From the NCBI RefSeq assembly GCF_010645065.1, contig NZ_JAADZW010000017.1, positions 1-64,000 on the forward strand: 64,000 nucleotides of DNA, written 5' to 3'. Positions 3,304 through 6,889 of this stretch are shown here, piece by piece. The position numbers and the translations under genes were made by a program. This DNA is from Flavobacterium fluviatile. Its GTDB lineage: Bacteria; Bacteroidota; Bacteroidia; Flavobacteriales; Flavobacteriaceae. The notes beneath the pieces are model-generated. The model saw nothing but the letters and a program-made list of their open reading frames with translations, was not told the DNA's origin and ran no database searches. The stretch's first letter is position 1. Every line of letters begins with the position of its first letter.

Positions 3304-4692
3304 TTATTTATCAATTTTTAAAAACTCATAATACAAAGTTTTCGACAAAAATGATTTTTCCTGATAGCTGCGGATATTGCTTTCTCTGTGTAAATCAATA
3401 TTTCTATGCTCAATTTTATTTTGCAAAAAATAATCATTACGTGCTTCATCGTTAAAATTCAAATCACTTAAAAAAATAGGTTCAACCCCTTTATTAACAG
3501 AAATATTATAAGTAGTAATCAGGTTGCCCCAATTAAAATAACTGGAAATCAAGATCGTTCCGTACAAGTACCAAATCATGTGGTTAAAAAGATAAGCGTT
3601 TGTTTTTTGCCTGATAATTTTTTGAAAAGAAAGGATTAATCCAATAATCGCTAAAGCTAAAAACAAATACACTCCCAGTCTTTTGTAGGTTAAGCCAAAA
3701 AAAGCAATGTATTCTGTATTTTTAGTAAAAGCACTTATAATCAAAGCACAGTTTAATGCAATCCAGATTTTGGCAAGTCTTTTTAGGCGGTTTGCTTTTT
3801 CATCAAAATTGAATCTTCCTTTGAAGTAAAACAGAATTACTCCCACAGCCATAATGATGGAGAAGATTACAGCATTTACGCGTTCGTGTGTATCAGAACT
3901 TAAATTTGTTTTTTCGACCACCTCAAAAAACTGTTCGTAATTATAGGTTCCAATGAACACCAATAGCATCAGGTTTAAAAGTACCAGTGTAATTTCACCG
4001 CTCTTTCTTTCAAAATCTACATCAAGGAAAGAAAATGTGTTTTGGTTTTCCATTTTAGCTGTATTACTAAAATCATTATCCAATAGGTGCTTTTTTTCAT
4101 AACACACTTCAGGAACCCAGTAATTCCAAAAGCTAAAACAAATATAAAATCCTAAAACAGAAATGACGATTAACTGCCAAAGATCAATATCTAAAGTATA
4201 ATCTGTAAAGAAAGAAGAAAAATGATCGCTCCCAAAAGAATAGACAATAAAAAACAATCCCAGAAAAACAGCTGGAATAACAACAAAAGCTATCAGCTTT
4301 TTTGCAAAATTGTTATGAATTTTCTTTTCGGGAAGCCATTGATTAAACATAAAAATACGGCCTATAGATGCAAATCCGTTTATGAAGATCAACGGTATCA
4401 CCTGAATTACTTTGAGTTCTCTTTCATGGGTTTTAAATTGTAAAAAGGTAATCGACAATGCCAAGGCCAAAAAAGAAGCAAAATCTCCGTACCAGGCAAA
4501 TGCCAGACAAGACAATATAGAAGTAACTACTAATATTAAATGGGTTCTGTCTGTAAATTTGTCCTGAAAAAAATAACAGATTGCAGTAGTTAATAGTAAC
4601 CCAAACAGAGCCAGATTAATACCCACTGTCTCATTGTAAAAAAGCAATGTAAAAATCAAACTGCTGGCCAGAATAAATTGGTGTGTTTTCAT
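3304..4692 (-). CDS. DUF4173/DUF4153-type polytopic membrane protein
   Basis: This is a multi-pass inner-membrane protein of about 462 aa with roughly 11 hydrophobic spans over residues 10-400, followed by a soluble, charged tail of about 65 residues (FLSDLNFNDEARNDYFLQNK). Overall it matches the DUF4173 family, whose function is unknown. I chose the ATG at 4692: the frame is open to a TTG at 4746, but that TTG sits inside the palindrome at 4733-4749, and the ATG is followed directly by a hydrophobic segment. The shared palindrome upstream links it to the winged-helix regulator operon at 4773-5682, which lies just upstream on the same strand. Confidence 0.8.
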   Translation of the reverse strand: MKTHQFILASSLIFTLLFYNETVGINLALFGLLLTTAICYFFQDKFTDRTHLILVVTSILSCLAFAWYGDFASFLALALSITFLQFKTHERELKVIQVIPLIFINGFASIGRIFMFNQWLPEKKIHNNFAKKLIAFVVIPAVFLGLFFIVYSFGSDHFSSFFTDYTLDIDLWQLIVISVLGFYICFSFWNYWVPEVCYEKKHLLDNDFSNTAKMENQNTFSFLDVDFERKSGEITLVLLNLMLLVFIGTYNYEQFFEVVEKTNLSSDTHERVNAVIFSIIMAVGVILFYFKGRFNFDEKANRLKRLAKIWIALNCALIISAFTKNTEYIAFFGLTYKRLGVYLFLALAIIGLILSFQKIIRQKTNAYLFNHMIWYLYGTILISSYFNWGNLITTYNISVNKGVEPIFLSDLNFNDEARNDYFLQNKIEHRNIDLHRESNIRSYQEKSFLSKTLYYEFLKIDK

Positions 4693-5067: not shown

Positions 5068-5682
5068 TTATTTGTATTTTCTGAACATTATTAATCCGTA
5101 CAAGATATGTAAAATACCAAATCCAATTATCCAAAAAATCAAACCATATCCTAAATAAAACATAGAAATAAATCCTAAAACCAATTCACAGTATCCCAAA
5201 TACTTCACATCAGAAAATGTATATTTTTCAGCATTGACAAGTGCTAAACCGTAAAAAATTAGAGTTGCCGGGGCAATTAAAACATATATTTCATGGTATA
5301 AAAGCGCCAGACAAAATATACCGCCAGCCACAAGAGGAATTGCCAAATTTAACAGCATCTTTTTTGTGGCAGATGTCCAGATTGGCAAATGATATTTTCT
5401 ACTTTTTCTGATGGTGAAAAAAATTCCAAACGTAAGTGCAGCCACCAAAATAATAAGCGCAATCCAAATTAACTCAGATACCAAATTAACTGAATACAAT
5501 TTATGATACCCATCAAAATAGTCAAGACCATTGGCCTTAAATAACTGATAAACGTACAATCCGCCGATAAGGGCAGACAATCCCGCAAAAACTCCAGAGA
5601 GTCCGCTTAAGGATATAAATCTTGAAGAGCGTTCCATCATAGAACGAATATGTGCTAAATCTTCCTGGTGCTTCTGATTCAT
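5068..5682 (-). CDS. Small polytopic membrane protein cotranscribed with the regulator
   Basis: This protein of about 204 aa has six hydrophobic spans (first near residue 25, last near 190) and a charged N-terminus reading NQKHQEDLAHIRSMMERSS. It belongs to a flavobacterial family of unknown function that I know only from this type of locus. The ATG at 5682 is preferred; the in-frame ATG at 5700 falls inside the palindrome and close to the predicted transcription start. It is followed by the winged-helix gene with a 4-base gap. Its likely role is membrane-associated, co-regulated with the DUF4173 protein. Confidence 0.8.
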   Translation of the reverse strand: MNQKHQEDLAHIRSMMERSSRFISLSGLSGVFAGLSALIGGLYVYQLFKANGLDYFDGYHKLYSVNLVSELIWIALIILVAALTFGIFFTIRKSRKYHLPIWTSATKKMLLNLAIPLVAGGIFCLALLYHEIYVLIAPATLIFYGLALVNAEKYTFSDVKYLGYCELVLGFISMFYLGYGLIFWIIGFGILHILYGLIMFRKYK

Positions 5683-5691
5683 AATTAAAGT

Positions 5692-5732
5692 ACTTTGCAT
5701 TACAAAGTTATTATTTATTTTGAATTGGCAAA
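5692..5732 (-). promoter_or_regulatory. Promoter with overlapping palindrome for the regulator operon
   Basis: Read on the minus strand, TTTG (5729-5732), an 18-base spacer and TAACTTTG (5703-5710) match the Bacteroidota promoter. The perfect palindrome ACTTTG-N5-CAAAGT (5692-5708) covers the -7 box and the expected transcription start. A protein bound there would block RNA polymerase, as expected for autoregulation by the winged-helix regulator. Confidence 0.65.
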
Positions 5733-5823
5733 TAAAAATTGAGTTTTATTTTACTGATGTGAAAATTTATTCTACGGGGCTTTGAAAACCTCGTAGAAAG
5801 TGTATTCTTAATAAACACGAGTT

Positions 5824-5935
5824 GCGTGAGGGATAGGAGCTGGCTACCGAAGTAGCGCGGATAGCCCGACCTTATTTAAAGAAAGGCGCTTATAAGTGTA
5901 AAGATTGGAGCGCCTTTTTGTAAATAAGGTCACGC
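5824..5935 (+). ncRNA. Structured RNA candidate resembling the Flavo-1 motif
   Basis: A strongly folded stretch in a 300-base gene-free gap. Nested perfect stems are visible: GCGTGA (5824-5829) with TCACGC (5930-5935), an 11-bp stem 5868-5878 with 5921-5931, a 9-bp stem 5882-5890 with 5909-5917, and GGCTA (5842-5846) with TAGCC (5862-5866). The single-stranded GTGAGGGATAGGAGC and AGCCCGACC segments resemble what I remember of the Flavo-1 RNA, a flavobacterial structure of unknown function. The outer stem and the 11-bp stem share base 5931 or nearly abut. A separate 9-bp hairpin lies just upstream (5771-5797). The gap is richer in G and C than its surroundings. The strand is chosen from the motif match. 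Confidence 0.55.
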
Positions 5936-5952
5936 CCAAATTATATAAAACG

Positions 5953-5981
5953 AAAAAAGCCTCTTCTTACGAACAGGCTTT
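5953..5981 (-). terminator. Terminator downstream of folD
   Basis: On the minus strand a 7-bp stem (AAAGCCT, 5956-5962 with 5975-5981) is followed by a T run, 20 bases after the folD stop. Confidence 0.7.
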
Positions 5982-6001
5982 GATCTATATTTAAAATAAA
6001 A

Positions 6002-6889
6002 TTATTTGTTTTTTGCGCTTCTCATTTTGCGTGCTAAAAGCGTATTTTTTAATAACATTGCAATGGTCATTGGTCCTACTCCTCCGGGAACAGGAGTTAT
6101 GAATGATGCTTTTTTGCTAACTCCGTCAAAATCAACATCACCTTTGATAATATATCCTTTTGCGTTTGAAGTATCATCCACACGGGTAATTCCAACGTCG
6201 ATAACGGTTACTCCTTCTTTTACCATATCTGCTTTTAAGAATTCCGGAACCCCTAAAGCTGTAATAATGATATCAGCATTTTTAGTAAACTCTGCTAAGT
6301 CTTTAGTGCGGCTATGTGTTAAGGTAACTGTCGAATCTCCAGGATTTCCTTTACGGCTCATTAATATACTCATTGGGCGACCAACGATGTGGCTTCTTCC
6401 AATAACAACTGTATGTTTTCCTGAAGTTTCCACTTTGTAACGCTCTAACAATTCCATAATTCCGAATGGTGTTGCAGGAATAAAACTTTCCATTTCAAGC
6501 GCCATTCTTCCGAAGTTTGTTGGATGGAATCCATCTACATCTTTATCCGGATCGATTGCCAAAAGAATTTTTTGCTCATCAATATGTTTTGGTAATGGCA
6601 ACTGAACAATATAGCCGTCCAGATTGTCATCTTCATTTAGTTCTTTAATTTTTGCTAATAAATCTGCTTCGGTAATATCTTCAGGCAAAGCAACTAAAGT
6701 GGAATCAAAACCAATTTGCTCACAGGATTTTACTTTACTTCCCACGTAAGTTAAACTTGCTCCGTTATTTCCAACTAATACTGCTGCTAAATGAGGTACT
6801 TTTCCTCCTGCTGCTTTTATGGATTGAACTTCGGCTGCGATTTCGTTTTTAATGTCTTCAGATGTTTTTTTACCGTCTAGTATTTGCAT
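6002..6889 (-). CDS. folD: Bifunctional methylenetetrahydrofolate dehydrogenase/cyclohydrolase
   Basis: FolD interconverts 5,10-methylene-, methenyl- and 10-formyl-tetrahydrofolate with NADP in the cytoplasm, supplying one-carbon units for purines and formyl-methionine. The 295-aa length is normal. Visible family signatures are [13 protein letters not shown] (with the catalytic Lys), QLPLPKHID, the [11 protein letters not shown] block and the nucleotide-binding [12 protein letters not shown], followed by [12 protein letters not shown] near the C-terminus. It is separated from ffh upstream by an imperfect palindrome (6899-7016) and has its own terminator, so it may be read from ffh or alone. 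Confidence 0.97.

Follow-up and report, generated by a model that had tools for sequence, protein, structure and literature searches.

A short, strongly folding, dispersed flavobacterial repeat in the gap before folD that looks like distinct kin of the Flavo-1 RNA

The gap before folD

The window analyzed here is a stretch of 64,000 nucleotides from Flavobacterium fluviatile (contig NZ_JAADZW010000017.1, positions 1 to 64,000). Its gap before folD contains one copy of a short, strongly folding, dispersed flavobacterial repeat. Both flanking genes lie on the minus strand in the gene list, as the initial annotation had stated. The features of the locus are:

5068–5700, minus strand: gene 2 of the gene list, 210 aa, unmatched in Pfam at E ≤ 0.001; in related species a relative adjoins the element
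5771–5797, plus strand: upstream palindrome, separate from the element (folding; comparison with orthologous sites)
5824–5940, plus strand: whole element, a three-way junction with the conserved tail CCCAAA (sole match of model R2 in the window at E ≤ 10)
5824–5828, plus strand: 5′ strand of the closing stem, GCGTG (6 bp with A5829-T5930 in the window copy; covariation)
5830–5867, plus strand: hairpin 1, including the module common to Flavo-1 (alignments, covariation, core pattern)
5870–5929, plus strand: hairpin 2, a long, fast-changing stem that retains its pairing (two-sided changes in 20 of 21 helix pairs, 94 copies)
5931–5935, plus strand: 3′ strand of the closing stem, CACGC (covariation)
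5936–5940, plus strand: unpaired conserved tail CCAAA (conserved 3′ flank in 39 locus clusters)
6002–6889, minus strand: folD, with its 3′ end toward the element (Pfam THF_DHG_CYH and THF_DHG_CYH_C)

The stretch 5771–5935 had been described as a structured RNA of four nested perfect stems similar to Flavo-1, and as RNA it does fold strongly (minimum free energy −62.3 kcal/mol versus −40.5 in shuffles, z −5.5, 0 of 200 as good). That description holds for the fold, the stems, the motifs, the G+C content and the strands of the neighbors, but not for the nesting, the extent or the 5771–5797 hairpin. The perfect stems of 6 bp (GCGTGA/TCACGC) and 11 bp (GACCTTATTTA/TAAATAAGGTC) are present, but they form part of a three-way junction and not of a nest, and the 11-bp stem and the closing stem compete for two pairs. 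The hairpin at 5771–5797 is neither nested nor in the unit, since orthologous sites, compared by eye, show other palindromes or none there; at several of them CCTACAAGGTTTTGAAAACCTTGCAGG or another palindrome occupies its position. The conserved unit spans 5824–5940, its tail CCCAAA reaching beyond the end first claimed, and the model R2, built from other genera, aligns to 5823–5943 with 67.9 bits. The two motifs reported earlier, GTGAGGGATAGGAGC and AGCCCGACC, are present, and the G+C content of the element (47.9%) is enriched over its sides (26.0% and 24.6%) and the window (33.3%), as had been observed.

Hairpin 1 is built from GGG/CCC, an A.G mismatch, TA/TA, a GGA/GGA internal loop, GC/GC, a 2-nt bulge and the apical GCTAC-CGAA-GTAGC, reading GGGATAGGAGC..GCTAC-CGAA-GTAGC..GCGGATAGCCC, while the 5′ strand of the closing stem varies among copies (GCGTG, GCGAG, GCGTT, GCAAG, GCACT, GCAAT and others), each variant being accompanied by its complement. 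By eye, the element stands between an imperfect terminator-like hairpin of folD and the promoter box of gene 2, a TAACTTTG box (also by eye) in the upstream region of that gene which is directed away from the element.

Fold conservation, folding strand and orientation

The fold is conserved, with compensatory changes in homologous copies. In a 94-row alignment (A3; 97 long-type copies minus L249, L250 and L152, the last a duplicate of L088 with an identical row), 97.8% of cells are paired versus 81.6% when shuffled, two-sided changes occur in 33 of 38 pairs, and sliding the partners by 1–3 columns lowers pairing to 33–50%. The set from other genera (A5; 27 of 48 loci, picked for a short hairpin 2) has 99.4% of cells paired and two-sided changes in 14 of 20 pairs, and RNAalifold returns the same structure for it unprompted. 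Copies from the site beside a corA-like gene (A4; 18 of 20 copies, L249 and L250 removed and the window copy not included) likewise have 99.4% of cells paired, with two-sided changes in 19 of 36 pairs, including 14 of the 19 pairs of hairpin 2; the count of further pair types in these 18 copies is not above shuffles (93/500). Identity among the corA-site copies is 0.74 in the element and 0.36 in the 5′ flank, the latter measured over 11 columns only. Alignments A2 and A3 were fitted to the structure of model R1 described below, and A4 and A5 are plain MAFFT alignments.

By these sequence measures the folding strand is the plus strand. With two tip pairs left out, the plus strand of the 94 copies carries 77 G-U against 7 A-C pairs (in 20 and 6 columns, respectively); the corresponding p of 5e-16 would hold only if cells were independent, which they are not, and the model to which A3 was fitted itself favors G-U over A-C. 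Restricting the count to the 73 copies that are antisense to both neighbors gives 56:6, and the 18 corA-site copies give 13:2; the other-genera set (3 G-U and 1 A-C in 540 cells) has too few wobbles to tell. RNA folding makes the plus strand more stable than the minus strand in 4/4 copies folded, and DNA parameters also favor it in the window copy.

The plus strand carries no promoter signal. The pattern TTG-N17-23-TAnnTTTG, whose TAnnTTTG box is also named as a Bacteroidota promoter pattern in the part of a published account available to us (PMC6414381), occurs upstream on the plus strand in 4 of 96 copies versus 4.9 in shuffles, and on the strand of gene 2 in 28 of 96 versus 1.7, an enrichment which indicates that the test is able to see promoters; the set of 96 includes many copies of one site. 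A generic sigma-70 scan gave a single plus-strand site (TTGGCA-16-TATTTT, 5725–5752), which is at chance level (2 on both strands, 1.1 in shuffles).

Long-type copies of the genus are oriented unevenly. With the strands of the neighbors written on either side of the element, 39 clusters divide into -[+]- 24, +[+]- 6, +[+]+ 5 and -[+]+ 4, so that the right-hand neighbor is on the minus strand in 30 of 39 (p 0.001), a preference for antisense placement behind a gene end, and the copies often lie 5–15 nt from a stop codon. Orientation to neighboring genes looks random in other genera, where 35 clusters from 48 loci comprise +[+]- 10, +[+]+ 9, -[+]- 8, -[+]+ 7 and one undecided. The strand relative to replication was mixed in single-contig genomes, judged by eye with the origin assumed at base 1.

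Spread, site history and kinship to Flavo-1

The element is found across the family and in part of the order. Allowing up to 2 mismatches, a 15-base motif from the initial annotation occurs at 17 places in the genome (7 forward, 10 reverse), versus 0 forward and 1 reverse for its backward-read control; at least one of the places, L015, looks like chance. Two models were searched, both within the order only and with rough E-values: R1, from six full-length copies including that of the window, and R2, from 27 copies of other genera aligned by MAFFT. Searches over 40 genomes used stricter filters. In the window's genome R1 has 26 matches at E ≤ 0.01 (7 of them above 100 bits) and R2 has 30, the element itself included. 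At E ≤ 1e-6, R1 matches 92 of 121 genomes of the genus and, in a sample of 149 from the family, 50 (48 of the 147 that belong to other genera), and hairpin 2 is mostly shorter in the loci inspected outside the genus. Of 196 genomes sampled from the order, R2 at E ≤ 1e-5 matches 44: the genus contributes 18, the rest of the family 6, family f2 3 and family f5 17. Plasmids and phages gave no match at E ≤ 1e-5, and viral contigs none to an exact and narrow search pattern. The general features of REP-like repeats are present, the unit (roughly 70–125 bp) being dispersed, multicopy, intergenic and folding, with an ORF call overlapping it at few loci.

At individual sites the element has been retained beside the same gene over many species. 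R1, run on 55 of 80 folD loci, finds copies above 98 bits in 20. Clustering by neighboring genes, which rests on simple ORF calls and groups the 96 best-scoring loci into 39 clusters with one representative each, places a corA-like gene before 20 loci and folD before 6, the window's included. A relative of gene 2 comes next in all seven loci with genes listed, and by this shared neighbor folD and corA mark a single site. The element stands beside the relative of gene 2 in L070, L088, L092 and L094; by eye, L078 has a short form and L093 a remnant beside that gene, L085 also has a short form, and in L095 both neighboring genes are present and the element is absent. In a quick tree built from 59 of the 94 copies, grouping mostly follows locus (14 changes, against a minimum of 8 and 33 after shuffling). 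One copy of the own genome (L049), behind a transporter-like gene, groups with copies of the folD/corA site and not with own-site copies of other species, which suggests that sequence has been exchanged between sites. At another kind of site, eight loci from eight other genera carry the element in sense immediately ahead of the haaO start, with differing second hairpins (L314, L318, L319, L330, L334, L341 and L356 by clustering, L316 by eye); Pfam 3-HAO was found for the haaO of L314, the one checked.

Flavo-1 RNA is Rfam family RF01705 (Weinberg et al., 2010; PMC2864571, seen in part), and it is described as among the most abundant sRNA families in the portion available of a further article (PMC9029176), where its function is not given. 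The suggested likeness to Flavo-1 is right in kind, through a common hairpin-1 module and intermediates, but the element is not Flavo-1 by Rfam's test. At curated cut-offs Rfam finds three tRNAs in the window and no Flavo-1, and the Flavo-1 model (cut-off 42 bits) has no match at E ≤ 10 in the 501 bases 5600–6100. A mir-465 match (E 3e-4, 30.1 of 65 bits) was taken as chance, a long hairpin matching an animal family. In the own genome there are at least 115 Flavo-1 matches at E ≤ 0.001, at least 106 of them over the cut-off (150 of 1367 candidates scored), and 14 control genomes contain none.

The core pattern with a complementary triplet is present in 17 of 20 Flavo-1 loci, 19 of 20 R1 loci and 1 of 29 RAYT loci, and at least 14 of 30 R2 matches coincide, compared by eye, with Flavo-1 matches over the cut-off. 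The top-scoring R2 match in the window's genome is this element (E 1.3e-12), even though only copies from other genera went into the model. However, R2 found nothing at 28 loci, representing 24 different places, where strong Flavo-1 copies lie, and Rfam gives no family at E ≤ 0.01 for any of ten loci carrying the other-genera form. Neither pole's model finds the other, yet intermediates exist, which points to two poles and to kinship rather than membership; the element almost certainly belongs to an uncatalogued sister family of Flavo-1.

Both poles have the same hairpin-1 core (closing triplet, A.G, 2 bp, a 3x3 purine loop, 2 bp), both occur in the same genome in many intergenic copies, and both have a GTTCTT stretch upstream in some copies (by eye for Flavo-1; 7 of 39 clusters of the long type versus 0.8 expected, uncorrected for many words). 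Unlike Flavo-1, the element surrounds the core with a closing stem and second hairpin, has the apical stem GCTAC-CGAA-GTAGC and receives no Rfam score. They also differ in orientation: 22 Flavo-1 copies show no bias (+[+]+ 7, -[+]- 6, -[+]+ 5, +[+]- 2, two one-sided), the right neighbor being on the minus strand in 9 of 21 versus 30 of 39 for the long type (Fisher p 0.012). No description of the longer unit was found in the literature searched, among the matches listed and in the parts of the sources available, and searches for element sequence strings in papers returned unrelated occurrences only.

A DNA repeat or an RNA

The element resembles a DNA repeat more closely than a small RNA under its own promoter, and we favor, at a probability of about 0.4, a DNA-level, REP-like repeat over an independent sRNA, because the fold lies on an often non-transcribed strand without promoter signal and the many dispersed copies adjoin unrelated genes. 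Also in favor of a DNA repeat are the random-looking orientation in other genera, locus L095 with both neighbors but no element, the jumps such as L049 in a tree otherwise grouped mostly by locus, the lack of matches in plasmids and phages, and the repeat end that abuts Flavo-1 (described below). Structure kept at single sites and some sense copies inside operons leave room for RNA. The element is a dispersed intergenic unit whose GCGTGAGGG strand folds into a closing stem and two hairpins, and it may act as DNA in the manner of REP or BIME repeats. The unit would be non-autonomous, its folded single strand being the form recognized by a DNA-processing enzyme (a putative mobilizer or repeat-binding protein); old copies would persist where they are, and the fast-changing hairpin 2 could be kept complementary by copies or arms exchanging sequence with, or correcting, one another. 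Several results count against a DNA repeat: double changes at one site beside an unrelated 5′ flank are what a functional RNA would also show, the antisense bias of the long type behind gene ends in Flavobacterium is not needed for a neutral repeat, eight other genera have sense copies ahead of haaO, and the search for a mobilizer or a clean insertion, described next, was negative.

Like REP and BIME repeats, the element is short, folding, dispersed and intergenic, but it differs from them as a three-way junction of up to about 125 nt. The available part of a survey gives REP counts for two Flavobacterium genomes (PMC12306157). REPs accompanied by RAYT genes differ further, as RAYT genes do not occur beside the element or Flavo-1 beyond chance. 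RAYT was accordingly rejected as a partner, Flavo-1 being found in 1 of 20 RAYT loci (20 of 36) and R1 in 0 of 36, counts that cover the loci of best matches only; one of 7 own-genome RAYT matches (C43:581-811) does have a Flavo-1 copy (C43:65-143) no more than about 0.5 kb away. YhcG/DUF1016 was rejected likewise, with the core pattern in 2 of 30 loci and four R1 matches at E ≤ 1 in three of the 30. One of the two loci with the core pattern is cassette-like, its YhcG/DUF1016 nuclease gene being framed by two direct copies of intermediate form (L019:1500-2900; G000:C40:139352-140645). Neither a mobilizer, with RAYT and YhcG as the candidates examined, nor an insertion marked by a clean empty site plus a target duplication came to light.

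Insertion sequences were encountered at the Flavo-1 pole. In all 15 places found (L178-L192, contig ends of the own genome), the end of an assembly-breaking repeat meets Flavo-1 at one and the same base. A related element in another genome (L222:150-1310, about 1552-1650; 87% over 67 bases) carries a gene for an IS110-type transposase (PF01548, PF02371) and, by eye, also ends at a Flavo-1-like core. Flavo-1 thus looks like a target of an IS110-type element, the transposase being read in the relative and the own-genome copies recognized by their repeat end only; this resembles REPs, some of which are targeted by ISs according to the part consulted of an earlier report (PMC1525189). Separately, a 184-bp stretch with ends AATGTCATT and AATGACATT and with GCTGCTATCCC on both sides splits a Flavo-1-like copy (L040:3986-4192; G000:C59), and a tyrosine-recombinase-like gene, by eye, starts at 4329 of that locus.

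Integron attC sites have conserved R and L boxes and an integrase nearby. Like them, the long type often follows a stop codon immediately and folds on the antisense strand, but it stands beside resident genes over many species and not in cassette arrays (box motifs judged by eye), and the integron idea was dropped as no arrays were seen by eye.

An action in cis, with in-transcript copies forming hairpins between genes or at 3′ ends that affect stability, processing or translation of the mRNA, is somewhat unlikely. The sense copies directly before haaO in eight genera and the proximity of long-type copies to stop codons fit it, but transcripts across -[+]- sites would carry the minus strand while the wobble pairs are on the plus strand, the folD-gap element lies between the folD terminator-like hairpin and the gene 2 promoter box, and orientation across the family looks random.

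We consider it rather unlikely that the element is an independent non-coding RNA, transcribed from the plus strand and acting in trans as a folded molecule. Covariation in the 94, the 18 corA-site and the other-genera copies, tolerance of G-U on the plus strand, the greater stability of plus-strand RNA and conserved loop bases are all consistent with such an RNA, but the promoter pattern on that strand is at chance and the copies are many per genome beside unrelated genes. Moreover, in the part available of the Flavobacterium psychrophilum transcriptome study (PMC9723704), several 5′ transcribed regions coincide with Flavo-1 matches, yet matches lie sense or antisense of transcribed regions and many fall outside, without a consistent relation. 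The independent transcript proposed initially is thus not borne out, and the folD-gap copy is probably neither transcribed as an RNA of its own nor a regulator of folD.

A transcription terminator or insulator between the two neighboring genes is highly improbable: the element is frequently positioned between a gene end and the next promoter, but a scan of 5600–6100 on both strands, whose maximum loop of 8 makes it miss the hairpin of folD as well, found no terminator-like site (0.4 in shuffles), and a five-T run lies within 80 nt in 43 of 96 copies. There is likewise very little to recommend a canonical Flavo-1 copy below the strict cut-off, which would account for the common core and the intermediates but is at odds with the failure of either model to match the other pole.

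Beyond the DNA repeat favored here, Flavo-1 and its sister family could conceivably constitute one old, order-wide system with strand-specific folding, copied via the folded single strand by a putative enzyme, a proposal we regard as speculative. The strand copied in such a system would be either ssDNA or an RNA master copied back.

A sister family that has a closing stem and a second hairpin and extends to other genera and to two further families of the order (f2 and f5) shows the catalogued motif to belong to a broader, more diverse kind, and the tests of strand, promoter and orientation turn "RNA or DNA element" into a question that can be settled. Such matches should not be counted as expressed sRNAs. 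If the order-wide system is real, one of the commonest catalogued "sRNA" families of the Bacteroidota would be a mobile or structural DNA element.
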